Shown here: piece by piece, positions 39,653 to 58,291 of the stretch | Numbering within the stretch: position 1 is the stretch's first letter | Layout of the letters: each line of letters starts with the position of its first letter | DNA from: Prevotella sp. | Lineage (GTDB): Bacteria; Bacteroidota; Bacteroidia; Bacteroidales; Bacteroidaceae | DNA: 58,291 bases | NCBI GenBank assembly: GCA_017458005.1 | Contig: JAFTGH010000065.1 | Location: 1-58,291, forward strand | Direction: 5' to 3' | Translations under genes and position numbers: made by a program | The notes under the pieces: generated by a model | The model's input: only the letters and a program-made list of their open reading frames with translations | Databases searched by the model: none | What the model was told of the DNA's origin: nothing

Positions 39653-39744
39653 AACGCACTATCGCCGATGCTCGTCACACTATTCGGAATCGTTACCGAG
39701 GTCAGACCGCTGCAACCTTCGAACGCACTATAGCCAATGGTCGT
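39653..39744 (-). pseudogene. Left part of a split leucine-rich-repeat gene fragment
   Basis: Read on the minus strand it encodes [19 protein letters not shown] and one further repeat ending in SAFYG and a stop. It continues in frame from the fragment at 50354-50480 if the element between is removed. It lacks a start and any other domain. Confidence 0.75.
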
Positions 39745-50323: not shown

Positions 50324-50353
50324 AAATACACCAAAATTGTGTTTTTTGCTCGT
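50324..50353. repeat. Right attachment site
   Basis: Half-site AAATACACCAAAATTGTG (50324-50341), the inverted partner of 39755-39772, then eight bases and the TCGT core (50350-50353). The GT of the core is 10 bases from the half-site, as at the left end. Confidence 0.75.
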
Positions 50354-50480
50354 CACACTATTCGGAATCGTTACCGAGGTCAGAGCACTGCAACCATAGA
50401 ACGCAAGATTGCCAATACTCGTCACATTGTTGGGGATCTCAATTGAGGTCAGACCGCTGCAGATAGAGTATTTGCAAATC
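50354..50480 (-). pseudogene. Right part of the split leucine-rich-repeat gene fragment
   Basis: On the minus strand it reads [18 protein letters not shown], then [20 protein letters not shown] up to the element edge. Its upstream side runs into a stop within 25 codons, so only about two and a half repeats survive. It joins in frame to 39653-39744. Confidence 0.75.
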
Positions 50481-50509
50481 GCTTTATATCAGAGATTTAC
50501 GTACTAAAC

Positions 50510-50765
50510 GGTAGAAAAGTGATTGCATGGATTTTATTGGGAACGAAAAAAGATGAAGATTTAACGTTTTTAACTTATATGCACAGTTTTGGGCAAATAA
50601 ATTGCAAAGTGAGGTTTGCAATTATTTTCAGCACACAAGGATTATTACGAAGAGTTTTTTTTACCCGATAATCAACCAGATGTGCATATAAAGGTAGAAA
50701 AGTGATGATGCATAAAATTTGTTAATGCAAAGGACGTGAGGATTTAACGTTTTTGACACGAAATT
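50510..50765. repeat. Degenerate direct repeat
   Basis: GGTAGAAAAGTGAT (about 50511) and GATTTAACGTTTTT (about 50558) recur in the same order at about 50691 and 50733, so a unit of about 70 bases is repeated 180 bases apart. No ORF spans them. Origin unknown. Confidence 0.55.
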
Positions 50766-50822: not shown

Positions 50823-51272
50823 TTCATGTCTGTGAGCTTATCGAGATTGAGTAGAATGCCTTTGAGCTACTTGAAACAGTGAAAGAGCTTGCCGACTCTT
50901 GCATTAACCTCTACATGCAGAAAGAACATATGACACTACTGGGTGATGATGGTAAAAATTCTATCTTTGCCCCTATCATGCTTGCCTCCCCTTTCTATCT
51001 GTGCCTAGTTGGAACGTGACAATATTTCATTCCCGCCGAACTCAGGTAGAACGCAGTACGTAGAGAAAGTCGGAAAACTCGACAGGCCTACAGGTTCTAA
51101 CAAGTTCAAGGATAAAAAAAGGGCAGAATATAAAGAGGTCATCAACCTTCTGAACAAGGGGTATGCCATCCGTGATGTTGCAAAACTCACAGGGAAAGGA
51201 ATAAGTACTGTGCAGAGAGTGAAGAAAGAGTTTTGTGGCTTGACGCAACAAATAACACCTCGATTTTTGTAA
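50823..51272 (+). pseudogene. Decayed invertase-type serine recombinase
   Basis: Pieces in shifting frames read CEL, AFELLETVKELADSCINLY, MQKEHMTLLGDDGKNSIFAP and then the intact C-terminal helix-turn-helix (EYKEVINLLNKGYAIRDVAK, STVQRVKKEF). In-frame stops and frameshifts break it, and the N-terminal catalytic part is missing. It is a relative, not a copy, of the 218-residue recombinase in the element, and marks an old insertion beside the defence genes. Confidence 0.75.
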
Positions 51273-51395
51273 AGTTTATCTATGGATTGGACTAAAACGC
51301 AAAGTAATTTTGATTATTTCTTCACTTTTTAATGATTTTATACATGTATTTGAAGGAAAAAGTGTAATTTTGCAATAAAATAAAGTGTGTAACTC

Positions 51396-51599
51396 ATGGA
51401 AAGTAAAGACTTGAACCGATTAAAGGTTGTTCTGGCAGAACAAAAGAGAACCGCAAAATGGCTGTCAGAGCAGATTGGGAAAGATCCTGCCACAGTCAGC
51501 AAGTGGTGTACAAATTCTTCTCAACCATCATTGGAAACCTTAAGCAGGATATCAGAGATTCTTAATGTCAAACTGAGTGATCTCGTCCGTAAGGATTAA
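51396..51599 (+). CDS. XRE-family helix-turn-helix regulator
   Basis: A 67-residue protein made of one XRE DNA-binding domain: LKVVLAEQKRTAKWLSEQIG, then DPATVSKWCTNSSQPSLETL and a closing ILNVKLSDLV. A TAATTTTG box lies at 51365-51372. It is 34 bases upstream of the ATPase gene and probably represses the defence pair; small XRE proteins often control such operons. Confidence 0.85.
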   Translation: MESKDLNRLKVVLAEQKRTAKWLSEQIGKDPATVSKWCTNSSQPSLETLSRISEILNVKLSDLVRKD

Positions 51600-51633
51600 G
51601 TTTCAATTATTGTCTAAAAAAAGAACTATAACT

Positions 51634-52383
51634 ATGTATATCAGTGAATTTAATATAGAAGGTCTTTGGGGAACAAAGGCTCTGAAATGGAAAAATATAC
51701 GCCAAGATCTGAATATTATAGTTGGTATAAATGGCGCGGGTAAAACGACTTTGCTTGATGCCATCTACAACTACTATTGCACCAAGGCTAAGCCAAAGCT
51801 TTATACTAAGGCTTCAGGTAATGCGATTGATATTCCAGTAATACAGGTTACTTCCTTTGATGTCCCTGCTGACGCCAAGAAAAAGAACAATAGTCCTTTG
51901 CTTAACCGTCTGCTTTCAGTGGTACTCCAGAATCTTGATCAGATGTCATTCTTCAACTACCGAATGATACCAATCAATTATCCTTCTGAAACGAAGCGCA
52001 TCAATGCTCGTATTGAAATGTTCTTCAAACTGGTCAATAGCTTCTTTAGCGAAACAAAGAAGTCTATCGACATTGACAAAGCAAAGAACACTATCATTTT
52101 CGTGACCAAGAGTGGAGATACTTTGCAGTTATCCGACTTATCAGCTGGCGAAAAACAGTTACTTTACCTTTTACTGACAGTCTTCCTGATGGATGAAAAG
52201 CCATCTGTCCTGTTGCTCGATGAACCAGAACTCTCTCTGCATATTACTTGGCAAGAGAAGCTGTTGGATGCATTGCGAAAGTTAAATCCTGCATGTCAAA
52301 TCATTATGACAACACATTCACCAAGCATCTTTGTAAATGGTTGGCGCGATCATCTCGTTTTCGTTGATAATCTGATAATGTAA
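51634..52383 (+). CDS. Compact AAA/ABC-type ATPase, PARIS AriA-like
   Basis: A 249-residue ATPase with all landmarks: Walker A GINGAGKTTL (Lys37), signature LSDLSAGEKQ (about 167-175), Walker B VLLLDEPELSLH (Asp196, Glu197) and the switch His in MTTHSPSIF (His228). The following gene encodes a DUF4435 protein, and this pairing is that of PARIS (AriA + AriB), which senses phage anti-restriction proteins. Known AriA proteins are longer by my recollection, so this is a compact relative. The start codon is fixed by alignment of the FNIEGLWG strand; GTG or ATG starts upstream are weaker. Confidence 0.7.
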   Translation: MYISEFNIEGLWGTKALKWKNIRQDLNIIVGINGAGKTTLLDAIYNYYCTKAKPKLYTKASGNAIDIPVIQVTSFDVPADAKKKNNSPLLNRLLSVVLQNLDQMSFFNYRMIPINYPSETKRINARIEMFFKLVNSFFSETKKSIDIDKAKNTIIFVTKSGDTLQLSDLSAGEKQLLYLLLTVFLMDEKPSVLLLDEPELSLHITWQEKLLDALRKLNPACQIIMTTHSPSIFVNGWRDHLVFVDNLIM

Positions 52384-52386
52384 GTT

Positions 52387-53277
52387 ATGGCAGTAACAAA
52401 TAGTCAGTTGAATGCTTTTGAAGCAGCGATTGCAAGAAACATCTCCGCTGGAACCATCCTTGCCGGATATGACATCTGCTTTCGTGTGGAGGATGCTGTG
52501 GATATTACCTTTTGGCAGAAGTTGTTGGCTACGAGAATAAAGGAAAAGAAGGTGAAGTTCTTCCCATTCGTTCAGAGTGGATGCAAGCGTATTACTGGCA
52601 AGTCATACATCATGAAGCACCAGGCGCAAGCAAATGAAAACTACATACTTTGTGTCGATAGTGACCTTGACCACATCCTTGGCAAAGAGGGTTTTGATGC
52701 CGAACATTACATCCTGCAGACTTACACATACTCTTGGGAAAACCATCATTGTTGGAGCCAGTCTCTGCAATCGATGTGGATGCAATGGCAAAAGAATGTA
52801 GAGTTTGATTTTGCCACATTCTTGTCTGGATTGAGTGCAGTTGTCTATGATGCTTTTGTGTTGATGCTCACTAAGAAACGCCTGTCTCACAAAGGATTTA
52901 CACTTGATACACTCTGCAACTGTTTAGATAAAGTACAAGGAAATCAAAGGGAGGCATTACTCCATAATGGAGAAGGTGTTTTGGCAGCTATAACAACCAA
53001 TATAAATCTCAAAATGGAGAATGTCGAACCCGAAACTACTGAAGACATTAGACATACTAAGCAGAGAATGGAAGAACTTGGCATCAATCAAGCCAATTGT
53101 TATCTTTATATGCAAGGACATTCCGTCTTCAATCTTGTAAACCGAATCGGCAAGGCTTTACTTGACGAATCATTTGAATATCAGGTTCTCATCCCTTCGT
53201 TCTCCATAGGTAATGACTATCAGGAACTTAATTGTATCAAAAGAGACATTGCACAAGTATTCGTTCAAAGCAATTGA
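52387..53277 (+). CDS. DUF4435 (TOPRIM-like) protein, PARIS AriB-like
   Basis: A 296-residue protein whose first 110 residues match DUF4435: FRVEDAVDITFWQKLL (Glu35), a GKS-type turn (ITGKSYIMKH), CVDSDLDHILG (Asp91, Asp93, Asp95) and the TYTYSWENHHCW strand. The E and D-x-D set is that of a TOPRIM nuclease. In PARIS the AriB protein is released to cut host tRNA on infection. It lies three bases after the ATPase gene. The C-terminal half is helical and unrecognised. Confidence 0.72.
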   Translation: MAVTNSQLNAFEAAIARNISAGTILAGYDICFRVEDAVDITFWQKLLATRIKEKKVKFFPFVQSGCKRITGKSYIMKHQAQANENYILCVDSDLDHILGKEGFDAEHYILQTYTYSWENHHCWSQSLQSMWMQWQKNVEFDFATFLSGLSAVVYDAFVLMLTKKRLSHKGFTLDTLCNCLDKVQGNQREALLHNGEGVLAAITTNINLKMENVEPETTEDIRHTKQRMEELGINQANCYLYMQGHSVFNLVNRIGKALLDESFEYQVLIPSFSIGNDYQELNCIKRDIAQVFVQSN

Positions 53278-53696
53278 CAATGCATTCCCCAAAGGAAAAA
53301 CTTTATGAATCGACAATCTGAAAATACAGAAATAGATGCTATACTCTTTGACGATGGGTACCTTCTCCTATCTGACAATGTCGGTAAACTCCCGATCAAT
53401 CTCTTGATGGATAGAGTTGGGTAATAATCATCGGTGCTATCAAAGGAATGATGCCGTTGGACATTGACAGAAATGGAGTTAGGGTATTAGCAAAAGAAAC
53501 AATGAGGATTGTGTGGATGATAGAGAAAAGTACGACCGCTGGTGGAGTTTGCTAAAGTATGCCCACTCGTTCCCTTGGCAAGAGGGCAACTACAACTTCT
53601 ACAGTACCATGAAAACTTAACGGCAACATTAATTTTCACAGGCAGGCGAACCGTTAATAGATTTATGACACAGTCTAAACAAAAAGAAATGTAAAC
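53278..53696. other. Gap between the two defence operons, with short ORF debris
   Basis: A 39-residue frame (53305-53424, MNRQSENTEIDAILFDDGYL onward) starts well but has no recognised family. After it several short broken frames (WMIEKST..., AHSFPWQEGNYNFYSTMKT) suggest the remains of another gene. No clear promoter for the next operon was found here. Confidence 0.45.
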
Positions 53697-54497
53697 ATGT
53701 CAAATACAAAATACGCACCTTGTCTTGATAGGGCTCAGATGGAGCACCTTGCAAGATTACTCGGCGAAGAAGTGACGGGATCAAAACTCCCATTACTTTT
53801 AGAACAAGTTTATCTGCATGATAGGCCAGAACTATCTACAAAGTGGAAAAGAATATATAACGCATTTATTATATACCAAAATGAGAAGCAATGCTCGAAC
53901 CAGATTATGAAATTCATAAAATTGGTAATCGAGCCTGCTAACTATTTAGGTCGTCTTGATGTATATAAGAATCTTCTTCAAGAAATATCAAAGGTGCTTT
54001 CCTTTGTTGGCTATGAAGTTCATGAAGATGGCAAAATCTATCCGTGCGTAGTCGCCAACACACTCTCTGAAGCAGAAAAGCGTGCAAGGGACTTACTGTC
54101 AAAACTTCAACAAAGGGGTGCTCATGCATCTGTATTATATTATTGCCGTGCGGAGTTACTTGACAATAACTACTTCCATGCTGTGTTTGAAGCTAATAAA
54201 GGACTTTTTCAAAGATTAAGAGACTTGACGGGACTCACTGAAGATGGAAATAAATTGATAGAACAGGTTTTCAGCAGGACGCCTGTTTTGATTATCAATA
54301 ACTTTCAAAGTCAGTCAGAGCAAGACGAACACAAAGGATTTTGTAACTTGCTGAAGGGTATATGCGGAATGTTTAGAAATCCAGAAGCTCATGAGGCAAA
54401 AATTACATGGAATGTAACAGAGCAAGATGCACTGGATATTCTATGCATGATTTCGTATTGCCATCGAAGATTAGACAATGCTCAAAGAATTAGATAG
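53697..54497 (+). CDS. TIGR02391/Ymh-like protein with HEPN-type RNase motif
   Basis: A 266-residue protein. The C-terminal part (about 150-262) matches the TIGR02391 pattern: ELLDNNYFHAVFEANKGLFQ, LIINNFQSQSEQDEHKGFCN and CGMFRNPEAHEAK. The last contains R-N-x3-H (Arg227, His232), the catalytic motif of HEPN ribonucleases. The N-terminal 140 residues are helical and unrecognised. It ends two bases before the reverse-transcriptase gene, so the two are coupled. Such a protein could be a toxin of the defence system; this is inference. Confidence 0.72.
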   Translation: MSNTKYAPCLDRAQMEHLARLLGEEVTGSKLPLLLEQVYLHDRPELSTKWKRIYNAFIIYQNEKQCSNQIMKFIKLVIEPANYLGRLDVYKNLLQEISKVLSFVGYEVHEDGKIYPCVVANTLSEAEKRARDLLSKLQQRGAHASVLYYCRAELLDNNYFHAVFEANKGLFQRLRDLTGLTEDGNKLIEQVFSRTPVLIINNFQSQSEQDEHKGFCNLLKGICGMFRNPEAHEAKITWNVTEQDALDILCMISYCHRRLDNAQRIR

Positions 54498-54499
54498 TA

Positions 54500-57400
54500 A
54501 TGATTACAACAGGACAAATATACCTTGCCTATCGCAAACTGAAGGGGGAATTGTATTATGACAATAATGCTTTGCTCCCCAAAGTTACATTGGCCAAATG
54601 GGAGCAAGAGTTAACACATAACCACGTTTCTTGCGATAAAGAGGAGTTTGAGAATCTTTTCTCAGATAGAGTAAGTCTGCTTTTGGCGTTTTTGAACGAT
54701 AACGAATGGAAATCGAATAATTATTTGAATCAGTTATTGGGCTCTATTGATTATCAAACGATTGTAAAATCGATTTCGTCAGATGAAACAGATTCGGGCA
54801 TTGGGACTTACATAACGAACTATAAGTATAAGAATAAGATACGTGTAGAAAAATGTAACTACATGATCGTATGCTCGGTAGAGGTACAATTGATAGCAAC
54901 GTTGTGGTTATTATATCTTAATCAGTATATTGATAGAAAGAAACTGTATAAGTACAACTATGCTAACAAGCTTCGGACTGATTCAAAAGTTGGTAATCTT
55001 TGGGAACGGGACGAAGAGGCAGGGTATCAATTGTCTATTACTAATGCTTATCAATTTGGCTATAGAAAGTGGCGAGACACTGCCATTATGACCGCGAACA
55101 AACTCCTAGATAAGAAAAACAATGCTGCTATATTAAACTTGGATATACAAAGATACTATTACAGTGTATCTGTTGAATTACAATCCTTACTTCGCTCTTG
55201 TTCTGAAAGGGGGTACATCCAAAGAAACTATGCTGAAGATGAGACGTTACTTCGCTTGACATCTATGCTTCAGGTAATCAATAAATCCTACACGGAAAAA
55301 GTAAAGCCGTGTTTGACAAAAGAGAACATTCGAGTAGCGGATAATCAAAACACATTGTTGCCAGTAGGACTTATGTCGTCCGGTATGATTGGTAATTTGA
55401 TTTTGACAGATTTTGATGAGCAGGTAGAAACTCTTGGATGCGAGTATTACGGACGCTATGTGGATGATATGCTATTTGTATTCAAAGGCAAAGTTGATGA
55501 TAAGCAACAAGATGTAATCAAAGGTTTTCTTCAGGAAAAGTTTGTCGATAATGAGATTCTGGATTGTGATGAGGTTGAAGATCATACGGAATACCATATA
55601 TGTAGCCATCCAGAGCTCGTCATTCAGGGAAGCAAAGTAGTGATGGAAGCCTTCAAGGAAAGTGGTCCAAGGGCTGCATTGAAAATCTTCGAGAAAAAGC
55701 TACGAGAACAAAGCAGCGAGTTCCGTTTCTTGTCAGATGATGGAGCCATTGACCAAGACTTTGAGAACGAAGCCTACGAATTGCAATATACTGATAGCCC
55801 GAATAAAATAAGGAATATTAATGCCTTTAAGGCAAACAGCTATGGTATCTCCAAATACTTGGCAAAGAAGATTAATTTAGCTGCTTTTATATCAGAATCA
55901 AAAGAAGATAAAGATAAAGATCGTCAAACAGCAAATCAAATTGTAGCCCTTGTAAAGGGATCAGTTGCAATTGATATGCATTACTTGTGGGAAAAGGTAA
56001 TCACTTATTTTGTGATAAAGGAAGACGCAAGTCATCTTAATAAACTCTTGAAGCAGCTAAAGACTGCTATCGCATGGCTTCGCATACCAGATGATAAAGA
56101 CCGTGAGGAACGTCTAAAAAATGATATGAAGAAGATGCTTGACGCTGCTATTATTTATGCGTTTGCACCTTTTCCGACTTTCTTGGACAAATTAGAAGAA
56201 AGAATAGTCGACGTTGATCCAAGTGTGGTATCTCAATTTAGAATGGCAAATATGACACGCCATTCTCGATTTGGAACAAGTGCATTAAATTACACAAACC
56301 TCATTATAAATGTTAATAGGAATTTTTATAAGAAAGACAAGATACAATTAGACGCTAATGATGTCAAAGTGAATATCTTTTATTGGCTAAGTCCTCGTTT
56401 TGTGTACTATTATGAGTTGTATATGCCAGTATTACTTTGCTCCTTGAATCCAGATGATGGTGTTTTGAAGTTGAATGAGGTTAATGAAAAAACTTATAGC
56501 TTATATTCGCGGTTGAATTTTGTATGGATGAAGATGTTCGACTTATCTGCGGGTGTCACTCCAAAATTGTTCGAAACGGCAAAGCGTAGTTCTGATAAGG
56601 TCTTAGAAATAGGAGCCTATGAATTCATTAAAAATGGATTGTTGAAAAAGAATGTATATAAGGATTGTGATAAGACAATCGGTATAGTAAATATGAAGGT
56701 TGAATCTACAAATTACGTAAGTAGTTTAAAGTCTAAACCAGTCTTGTCTAAAACGCGCAGTGTAGCCCTTAATCGTATTCTTGATGAATCAGATAGGCAA
56801 AAGTGCGAGGTCTTAGTCCTACCCGAGTTGTCGGTTCCTTTCCAATGGATCGAGCTATTAGCAACTCAGTCACAGCGAAAGAAAATGGCGATAGTTTCAG
56901 GTTTAGAATATGTGATTAATCGTTCAAATGAGGCGTTGAATATAGTAGCCACATTTCTGCCTATTCAGTGGGCAAAATATAAAACCGATTGTATTCCTGT
57001 GTTACGGTTGAAAAATCATTATGCACCAAGTGAGAAACAGATGATTGTTGATAATGGTCTTGAATGTCCAAAAAGTTTATCGCATACAGGCTCATGTTAC
57101 GATTTGTTCCATTGGCGCAATAGCTATTTCTCTGTTTACAACTGTTTCGAACTCGCTAGCATTGAAGATCGTGCTTTAATGAAAGGTAAGGTTGATTTCT
57201 TGATAGCAACCGAGTTCAATCGTGATGTTTTATACTATTCTGATATTGTGGGTTCTCTTGTTCGTGATTTGCATTGCTTTGTAATTCAATGTAACACTTC
57301 TCAATTTGGCGACTCAAGAATTATGCAACCTACAGAATCAATACTCAAAAATATGGTGAGTGTGAAAGGCGGAAAATCAGAAGCTGTCCTTACTGAAATC

Positions 57401-57586
57401 ATAGAAATATCATCACTCCGTAAGCAACAGAGGGAGTCCGTCAAAAAGTATGCGAATCCAAAGCCTCAGAAAAAAGCGAAGGAAGTTGAAAAAACTATAA
57501 AGTTTAAAGACACACCTCCCGGTTTTAATGAGTATGATATTATGACAAGAGAAAATGGATACCATTTGATTGATCCTGCTGACTAA
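54500..57586 (+). CDS. Reverse transcriptase-nitrilase fusion, DRT type 1/UG1-like
   Basis: A 1,028-residue protein of the group of defence-associated reverse transcriptases that carry a nitrilase. RT motif A is AAILNLDIQRYY (Asp215), motif B LLPVGLMSSGMIGN (about 287-299) and motif C GRYVDDMLFVF (Asp322, Asp323). The C-terminal C-N hydrolase domain (about 735-985) has Glu776 in VLPELSVPF, Lys838 in RLKNHYAPSE and Cys882 in VYNCFELASI, so both active sites look intact. A basic tail follows. UG1, UG5 and UG6 all have nitrilase domains; UG1 is favoured by the fused, large form and the membrane neighbour. Anti-phage role is inferred. Confidence 0.85.
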   Translation: MITTGQIYLAYRKLKGELYYDNNALLPKVTLAKWEQELTHNHVSCDKEEFENLFSDRVSLLLAFLNDNEWKSNNYLNQLLGSIDYQTIVKSISSDETDSGIGTYITNYKYKNKIRVEKCNYMIVCSVEVQLIATLWLLYLNQYIDRKKLYKYNYANKLRTDSKVGNLWERDEEAGYQLSITNAYQFGYRKWRDTAIMTANKLLDKKNNAAILNLDIQRYYYSVSVELQSLLRSCSERGYIQRNYAEDETLLRLTSMLQVINKSYTEKVKPCLTKENIRVADNQNTLLPVGLMSSGMIGNLILTDFDEQVETLGCEYYGRYVDDMLFVFKGKVDDKQQDVIKGFLQEKFVDNEILDCDEVEDHTEYHICSHPELVIQGSKVVMEAFKESGPRAALKIFEKKLREQSSEFRFLSDDGAIDQDFENEAYELQYTDSPNKIRNINAFKANSYGISKYLAKKINLAAFISESKEDKDKDRQTANQIVALVKGSVAIDMHYLWEKVITYFVIKEDASHLNKLLKQLKTAIAWLRIPDDKDREERLKNDMKKMLDAAIIYAFAPFPTFLDKLEERIVDVDPSVVSQFRMANMTRHSRFGTSALNYTNLIINVNRNFYKKDKIQLDANDVKVNIFYWLSPRFVYYYELYMPVLLCSLNPDDGVLKLNEVNEKTYSLYSRLNFVWMKMFDLSAGVTPKLFETAKRSSDKVLEIGAYEFIKNGLLKKNVYKDCDKTIGIVNMKVESTNYVSSLKSKPVLSKTRSVALNRILDESDRQKCEVLVLPELSVPFQWIELLATQSQRKKMAIVSGLEYVINRSNEALNIVATFLPIQWAKYKTDCIPVLRLKNHYAPSEKQMIVDNGLECPKSLSHTGSCYDLFHWRNSYFSVYNCFELASIEDRALMKGKVDFLIATEFNRDVLYYSDIVGSLVRDLHCFVIQCNTSQFGDSRIMQPTESILKNMVSVKGGKSEAVLTEIIEISSLRKQQRESVKKYANPKPQKKAKEVEKTIKFKDTPPGFNEYDIMTRENGYHLIDPAD

Positions 57587-57606: not shown

Positions 57607-58155
57607 ATGAATTACAGATTACAAGACATAATGAAAATGATAATCCCAGGGCTATACTTAATGGCTTTAGTTCTGGGATATAATATTTGGTACTCAGATT
57701 TCGATATTGACACATCAAAGCTGAAAGACTTGTCGGCAATAGTTGTCCTGCTAATCCCTTTCGTGGGTTTTGTCGTGGGATACTTTGTTGAGTGTATCAC
57801 TGCTGGATTAGAGCACGGATGGTATGCACTCGGTTGGAGGCGACCTTCAAAAAATATAATGGATGGTTCCTCAATGTATCCCGTGGCTAATATAGAAATG
57901 ATTAAGATGAAACATCAGATCACAAATGGTAGCATTACAAATGATAAAGCCAATGAAGTTCTACAGGCTGCGAAGCAAAGTATTACGAATAAAGAGGTTG
58001 TAGAGCCATATCGTAATAATGCTTCATTGGCACGAAACATTTTTGGCGCACAGCTCATATTTACGATATTTTATGCAATTGGGCTTGATGCATTTTACAC
58101 AGAAGTTTATTGGCACTTGTCATTATTCGTTTTACTTGCATTCCTTGGGTATTGA
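57607..58155 (+). CDS. Small membrane protein of the DRT operon
   Basis: A 182-residue protein with about four membrane segments: MIIPGLYLMALVLGYNIWY (about 11-29), AIVVLLIPFVGFVVGYFVEC (about 45-65), IFGAQLIFTIFYAIGLDAFY (about 144-163) and WHLSLFVLLAFLGY (about 169-182). A soluble loop of about 75 residues lies between the two pairs. It starts 20 bases after the RT gene. DRT type 1 systems are reported with a small membrane partner, which this could be; it may anchor the enzyme or act as effector. Confidence 0.72.
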   Translation: MNYRLQDIMKMIIPGLYLMALVLGYNIWYSDFDIDTSKLKDLSAIVVLLIPFVGFVVGYFVECITAGLEHGWYALGWRRPSKNIMDGSSMYPVANIEMIKMKHQITNGSITNDKANEVLQAAKQSITNKEVVEPYRNNASLARNIFGAQLIFTIFYAIGLDAFYTEVYWHLSLFVLLAFLGY

Positions 58156-58263
58156 GCCCACTTTAAAAAGTTAGGCGTTAAAAATGTCACAAAATAATCT
58201 CTGATTCATGCCGATTTATGGAATATTTTTTGTACCTTTACATCATCAATCAGAAAGAAAGAC

Positions 58264-58291
58264 GATGTTCAAGAAGACAGACCCGAATCCC
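58264..58291 (+). CDS. Start of a possible insertion-sequence transposase (partial)
   Basis: Only nine codons are in the window: MFKKTDPNP. This opening recalls the start of some Bacteroidota insertion-sequence transposases, and a TACCTTTA box lies at about 58230, but nine residues cannot settle it. The strand and start are supported by that box only. Confidence 0.35.

Follow-up and report, generated by a model that had tools for sequence, protein, structure and literature searches.

Does a HEPN gene that runs almost directly into a reverse transcriptase (RT)–nitrilase gene belong to the same anti-phage system, or do the two only share a defence island? The question is raised by a Prevotella sp. 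contig (JAFTGH010000065.1 of assembly GCA_017458005.1, a 66-contig draft genome), the whole of which, 58,291 bases, was analysed and is referred to here as the window. A defence island occupies its end, comprising a small helix-turn-helix (HTH) gene, the PARIS genes, a spacer, the HEPN gene, the RT–nitrilase gene and a membrane-protein gene. The HEPN stop lies at 54497 and the RT ATG at 54500, leaving a two-base gap on the same strand, and from this gap the pair is probably carried on a shared transcript. A sequence-only reading of the locus, whose placement of the two genes agrees with ours, had proposed that the HEPN protein is a third component, perhaps the effector, of a defence-associated reverse transcriptase (DRT) system. 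The likely explanation, in our assessment, is that independent, known modules—PARIS, HEPN, and a UG5 RT–nitrilase with its membrane protein—are stacked side by side.

The RT matches the PADLOC RT_UG5-nitrilase model at 670 bits (1.4e-201) over residues 2–1014 of 1028. The Drt1a (UG1) model gives only 88.9 bits, with its best stretch (residues 760–982) in the nitrilase part. By these profile scores the RT is UG5-type, a class 3 DRT; the UG1, or DRT type 1, assignment suggested by the sequence-only reading is not supported (670 versus 89 bits). Its observation of intact active sites was sound: an alignment of 77 sequences, made up of the window and 76 of 80 relatives (four with split frames were left out), shows no variation at the YVDD of the RT (residues 320–323) or at the nitrilase residues Glu776, Lys838 and Cys882. 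RT Asp215 is identical in 76 of the 77, the remaining one having a gap, and the start of the protein is supported by an N-terminus that aligns with relatives. Full-length model match, YVDD with Glu-Lys-Cys and a membrane-protein partner are all present, the last being reported for one UG5 system, not for all. UG5 RT–nitrilases are rare nearby, with matches at 1e-20 in 1 of 301 genomes of the family, namely its own. Across a phylum sample, 57 of 395 genomes match the UG5 model at 1e-10; most of the RT–nitrilase is present in only eight of these (own included), the others matching RT or nitrilase parts. Two of the eight have separate RT and nitrilase frames and one is cut by a contig end.

The sequence-only reading had tied its case to recurrence of the pair in other genomes. 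A UG5 family scan of 84,980 genomes confirmed 456 places. Searched with a HEPN profile derived from the window protein plus three of its plasmid relatives, 0 of the 80 best of these contain a TIGR02391 HEPN gene (upstream sequence exceeds 1 kb in 72 of the 80 and 300 bases in 75). Positive HEPN matches in this search come from the window or from sequences that went into the profile; a true control is given by six loci outside the profile (L131–L136), in which it finds HEPN-only Ymh proteins at 64–107 bits and so proves sensitive enough. No TIGR02391 HEPN gene was found in the seven further UG5 RT–nitrilase genomes of the phylum sample, one of which repeats a locus of the 80 and one of which (L012) offers only about 0.6 kb upstream, or in any of 45 viral RT loci, mostly RT-only matches with four that span nearly the whole RT–nitrilase. 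Redundancy is low: 87 RT proteins (76 of the 80, the seven and the four viral) include three pairs at least 90% identical, one linking the 80 with the seven, the four split RTs standing outside this comparison. The reciprocal search gave a UG5 RT in 0 of 62 HEPN-relative loci (44 viral, 16 plasmid, phage or genome, plus L268 and L269), a partly redundant set in which the 44 viral proteins reduce to 21 distinct ones at 92% (minimum 230 residues), L003 and L006 are closely similar, the Bacteroidota-type loci L142 and L143 have broken copies and the viral loci L204–L206 have partial matches. The 21 non-redundant viral proteins were kept, and 20 of them (L206 left out) were used with the window protein for models. 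Among the samples examined, the tight HEPN–RT junction is found only in this genome. A role for the HEPN protein as third component or effector is therefore unsupported, the pair being absent from the sampled RT and HEPN loci alike. Lack of recurrence was the refuting condition set by the sequence-only reading itself, and the outcome went against its proposal; its interpretation is borne out in part.

Elsewhere, each gene keeps other company. HEPN relatives match in 120 plasmid records (90 over 80% of the query), nine phage records (seven over 80%) and 13 of the 395 phylum genomes (own included; six match only the HEPN part). Their neighbours include PD-Lambda-3_A (L003), Hachiman (L006), Shedu (L148), mazEF (L004), AbiTii (L138) and an AbiJ-like gene (L147), and some sit in a prophage lysogeny region. 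In L147 a short RT that fits no clear class stands two genes away from the relative, and in L268 (6063–8529) a complete type VI retron (SP, HTH and RT models) is followed after 154 bases by a same-strand TIGR02391 HEPN gene.

For the UG5 RTs, neighbours were taken on the same strand within 300 bases, giving 48 upstream and 45 downstream genes from 74 loci each; 47 of the 48 (leaving out an RT fragment in L104) and all 45 were scanned. Families were drawn from the best 25 of 42 Pfam families in both tables and the best 25 of 267 and of 107 PADLOC families, which leaves room for a HEPN protein of another family among these neighbours. Of the scanned genes next to the RT, 8 of the 47 upstream encode HsdS and 6 of the 45 downstream encode HsdR. 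In all six HsdR loci (L046, L049, L060, L074, L080 and L111) the RT is immediately followed by HsdR and preceded, at a distance of one or two genes, by HsdS; HsdM was confirmed by the scan in four (the L049 candidate did not match). UG5 RT–nitrilases thus recur inside type I restriction–modification (R-M) operons, between hsdS and hsdR. Membrane-type families also follow UG5 RTs (RTasTM models in 2 of 45 and Drt1b in 1, with possible overlap), and in L075 (6439–7059) a Cap15 gene, encoding a cyclic-dinucleotide receptor domain with membrane helices, stands directly behind the RT–nitrilase. HEPN relatives without UG5 RTs, together with UG5 RTs without the HEPN gene, argue for independent modules.

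The HEPN protein itself is well placed by family scores (Pfam PF09509, 133.5 bits against a cut-off of 25; NCBIfam TIGR02391, 121.2 bits against 39.45). Its R-N-x3-H motif, RNPEAH (Arg227 and His232), had been picked out from the sequence alone, and R227, N228 and H232 prove invariant in alignments of 14 and of 21 sequences, window included. A second R…H of equal spacing, at residue 12, is not invariant. The motif is hence a conserved one, not a chance R-x4-H, and RNase activity is predicted from it. The layout consists of an N-terminal helical domain (residues 1–122) and a Ymh HEPN domain (about 140–262). In an AlphaFold2 model (pLDDT 88.1, pTM 0.55) the C-terminal half adopts a HEPN-like fold, the outcome anticipated by the sequence-only reading. 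Confidently modelled, residues 1–122 (window 53697–54062) show a weak, low-Z resemblance to death folds; this domain is common to the PD-lambda-3 B family and may be a death fold. PADLOC PD-Lambda-3_B matches residues 25–264 (5.4e-70), and an Escherichia coli plasmid copy that adjoins PD-Lambda-3_A (L003) is 42.5% identical; by sequence the protein is a full-length relative of the PD-lambda-3 B protein (about 43% identity). For the Ymh family, the same Pfam family, stand-alone and fused forms are listed together with the motif, as are operons shared with R-M genes (PMC3710099). That survey offers no RT–nitrilase neighbour, the word 'nitrilase' being absent from its main text.

Behind the RT lies the membrane-protein gene, which together with PARIS was omitted by the sequence-only reading and belongs to the picture. 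Its relatives stand directly downstream of UG5 RTs in L081 (11282–11965) and L054 (4346–5026), compared with which the window protein is about 19–23 residues shorter at the C-terminal end. The stop codon falls within the terminal repeat of an insertion sequence, a stretch that recurs in multiple copies across other genomes of the genus. One of these, G732, holds two element copies, each a transposase-like gene with the same repeat at both ends. The alignments indicate that the gene is cut short by the insertion sequence. A UG5 RT–nitrilase with a transmembrane partner is listed among the anti-phage systems of P4-like satellites, as is PARIS (PMC9122126); the UG5-type RT, C-terminal nitrilase and associated membrane protein are alike in both. 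The Prevotella locus differs in having a HEPN gene directly in front and a membrane-protein gene cut by an insertion sequence; the membrane protein itself, with its two predicted helices, is unmatched by any PADLOC family.

As a separate observation, the window membrane protein and its L081 and L054 relatives resemble Csx27, which serves type VI-B CRISPR as membrane partner. PADLOC Csx27 matches the L054 protein (1.8e-6) and neither the window nor the L081 protein; comparing the membrane proteins, as a profile, with Csx27 aligned to two weaker relatives gives an E value of 1.6e-8 and a probability of 95.5%. One Csx27 copy (L207) adjoins Cas13b. The broader Csx27-like family also occurs away from CRISPR (L208 and L211), which makes it a wide membrane-protein family.

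Upstream, AriA and AriB are adjacent and constitute PARIS (51634–53277). The listed AriA open reading frame starts from a GTG at 51577, and the PADLOC match begins at its residue 20, an ATG. A small HTH gene also precedes PARIS in a congeneric genome (G766, locus L162), in which 51201–53310 (HTH, AriA and AriB) is 90% identical and other genes lie downstream. That identity ends at 53310, just past AriB and upstream of HEPN, which sets a module boundary in the spacer; with other genes behind a 90% identical PARIS, the modules evidently move separately. Composition does not separate HEPN from RT, their G+C being nearly equal (38.0% and 36.7%). A short repeat family with many copies across genomes of the genus, in places tandem, is also represented in the window (50347–50581 and 39669–39744).

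Table 1. Features of the defence island at the end of the window.
Feature	Coordinates	Strand	Basis
Small Cro/C1-type HTH gene, 67 aa, upstream of PARIS	51396..51599	+	Pfam HTH_26/HTH_3
AriA, PARIS ATPase	51634..52383	+	PADLOC AriA 1.6e-97
AriB (DUF4435), PARIS effector	52387..53277	+	PADLOC AriB 9.5e-67; Pfam DUF4435
Spacer, 419 bases	53278..53696	.	Without + strand open frame of at least 60 aa
HEPN gene, 266 aa	53697..54497	+	Pfam, NCBIfam, PADLOC
RNPEAH motif codons (Arg227 to His232)	54375..54392	+	
UG5-type RT–nitrilase, 1028 aa	54500..57586	+	PADLOC RT_UG5-nitrilase
YVDD of RT active site (residues 320–323)	55457..55468	+	
Nitrilase Glu776, Lys838, Cys882, first to last codon	56825..57145	+	
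Membrane-protein gene, 182 aa, two predicted membrane helices	57607..58155	+	Relatives directly behind UG5 RTs in L081, L054
Insertion sequence end; terminal repeat from about 58153	58153..58291	.	Repeated copies in genus; contig stops inside element

How does stacking fare against other explanations? The HEPN protein could be a true component, effector or regulator, of a lineage-specific class 3 DRT variant with one extra gene, its RNase activated by RT-made DNA or by a nitrilase product. Both sets of active sites are intact, the genes are two bases apart on one strand, and AbiA offers a precedent for HEPN–RT fusion. AbiA is a DNA-making RT with a HEPN domain as a working part, that domain being reportedly inactive as an enzyme (PMC11077055); it is one protein of another RT group, whereas the Prevotella locus has separate genes and an intact HEPN motif. 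Against this stand the absence of the pair from 80 + 7 + 45 RT loci and 62 HEPN loci, and relatives of both genes that stand alone or with other neighbours, so we regard a joint system as unlikely. Bolder still would be a three-arm class 3 DRT, with a death-fold–HEPN RNase co-transcribed and linked with the UG5 RT–nitrilase and a Csx27-like membrane protein, and covalent RT-made DNA gating both nitrilase and RNase; this we hold to be quite improbable. A milder form, limited to the TIGR02391/PD-lambda-3 B family having a death-fold domain through which its HEPN RNase assembles, is more likely than the three-arm arrangement.

Alternatively, the HEPN gene might be what remains of a PD-lambda-3-like pair after loss of the A gene, now idle or a leftover. 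PD-lambda-3 is called an abortive-infection system (PMC13190303) and is traced to PMC9519451 by a table of PMC10952713. Its B protein is a relative of the window HEPN protein, matched over nearly full length, and A lies just upstream of B in L003. Here the A gene is not adjacent: the spacer has no + strand open reading frame of at least 60 residues, the preceding gene is AriB and no A gene is present in the window; PD-Lambda-3_A was also unmatched in the rest of the genome, in a search whose controls were silent too. Yet A is matched in just one of five scanned upstream neighbours of HEPN relatives (L003; not L004, L138, L147 or L148) and is seemingly not required, and HEPN retains an unbroken reading frame and its motif. 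A leftover is, to our mind, rather improbable. Far more doubtful again is an assembly artefact: the genome is a draft, but the sequence runs without a break through two intact, abutting genes of similar G+C, with over 3 kb to go before the contig ends.

Several points weigh against independent stacking. A two-base gap on one strand suggests co-expression, which unrelated cassettes do not require. AbiA shows that a HEPN domain can serve a DNA-making RT, and an RT of another kind lies near HEPN relatives in at least 2 of the 62 loci (L147 and L268). Of the 456 UG5-like places, 376 lie outside the 80 examined, and the samples hold no second genome of the same species. Finally, a review table files PD-lambda-3 under PD-(D/E)XK nucleases, not HEPN (PMC10952713), so that comparison says little on mechanism.

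If the modules are independent, each would act by its own route. In the HEPN protein, the N-terminal helical, possibly death-fold, domain would control assembly or sensing, and two HEPN domains would form an RNase active site around Arg227 and His232; the dimer would then act as an abortive-infection effector by cleaving RNA in infected cells. For the RT–nitrilase the guide is DRT1, which shares the architecture, the YVDD and the catalytic Cys with the window RT and differs in RT group (UG1, versus UG5 here). When five UG5-type proteins are combined into a profile, the DRT1 structure 9yfd is matched at 7e-26, most strongly over the C-terminal part. Protein-primed DNA is made without a template by both DRT1 and purified DRT5, synthesis being described for purified DRT5S and DRT5L, and in DRT1 this DNA controls the nitrilase; the DRT1 priming serine is not conserved among other class 3 DRTs (PMC13275509). 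By analogy, the window RT may make template-free, protein-primed DNA that controls its nitrilase, which, with the membrane protein as partner, would harm the infected cell.

The individual parts are already known, and the junction looks like ready-made defences packed together. Tight spacing in a defence island is poor evidence for a joint system when the relatives of each gene partner elsewhere. UG5 RT–nitrilases recur between hsdS and hsdR of type I R-M operons, or before membrane-protein genes. The TIGR02391 HEPN gene is a promiscuous defence gene, seen on plasmids, in prophages and on chromosomes, and its product has a conserved N-terminal domain, maybe a death fold; a possible death-fold–HEPN architecture is the freshest lead.

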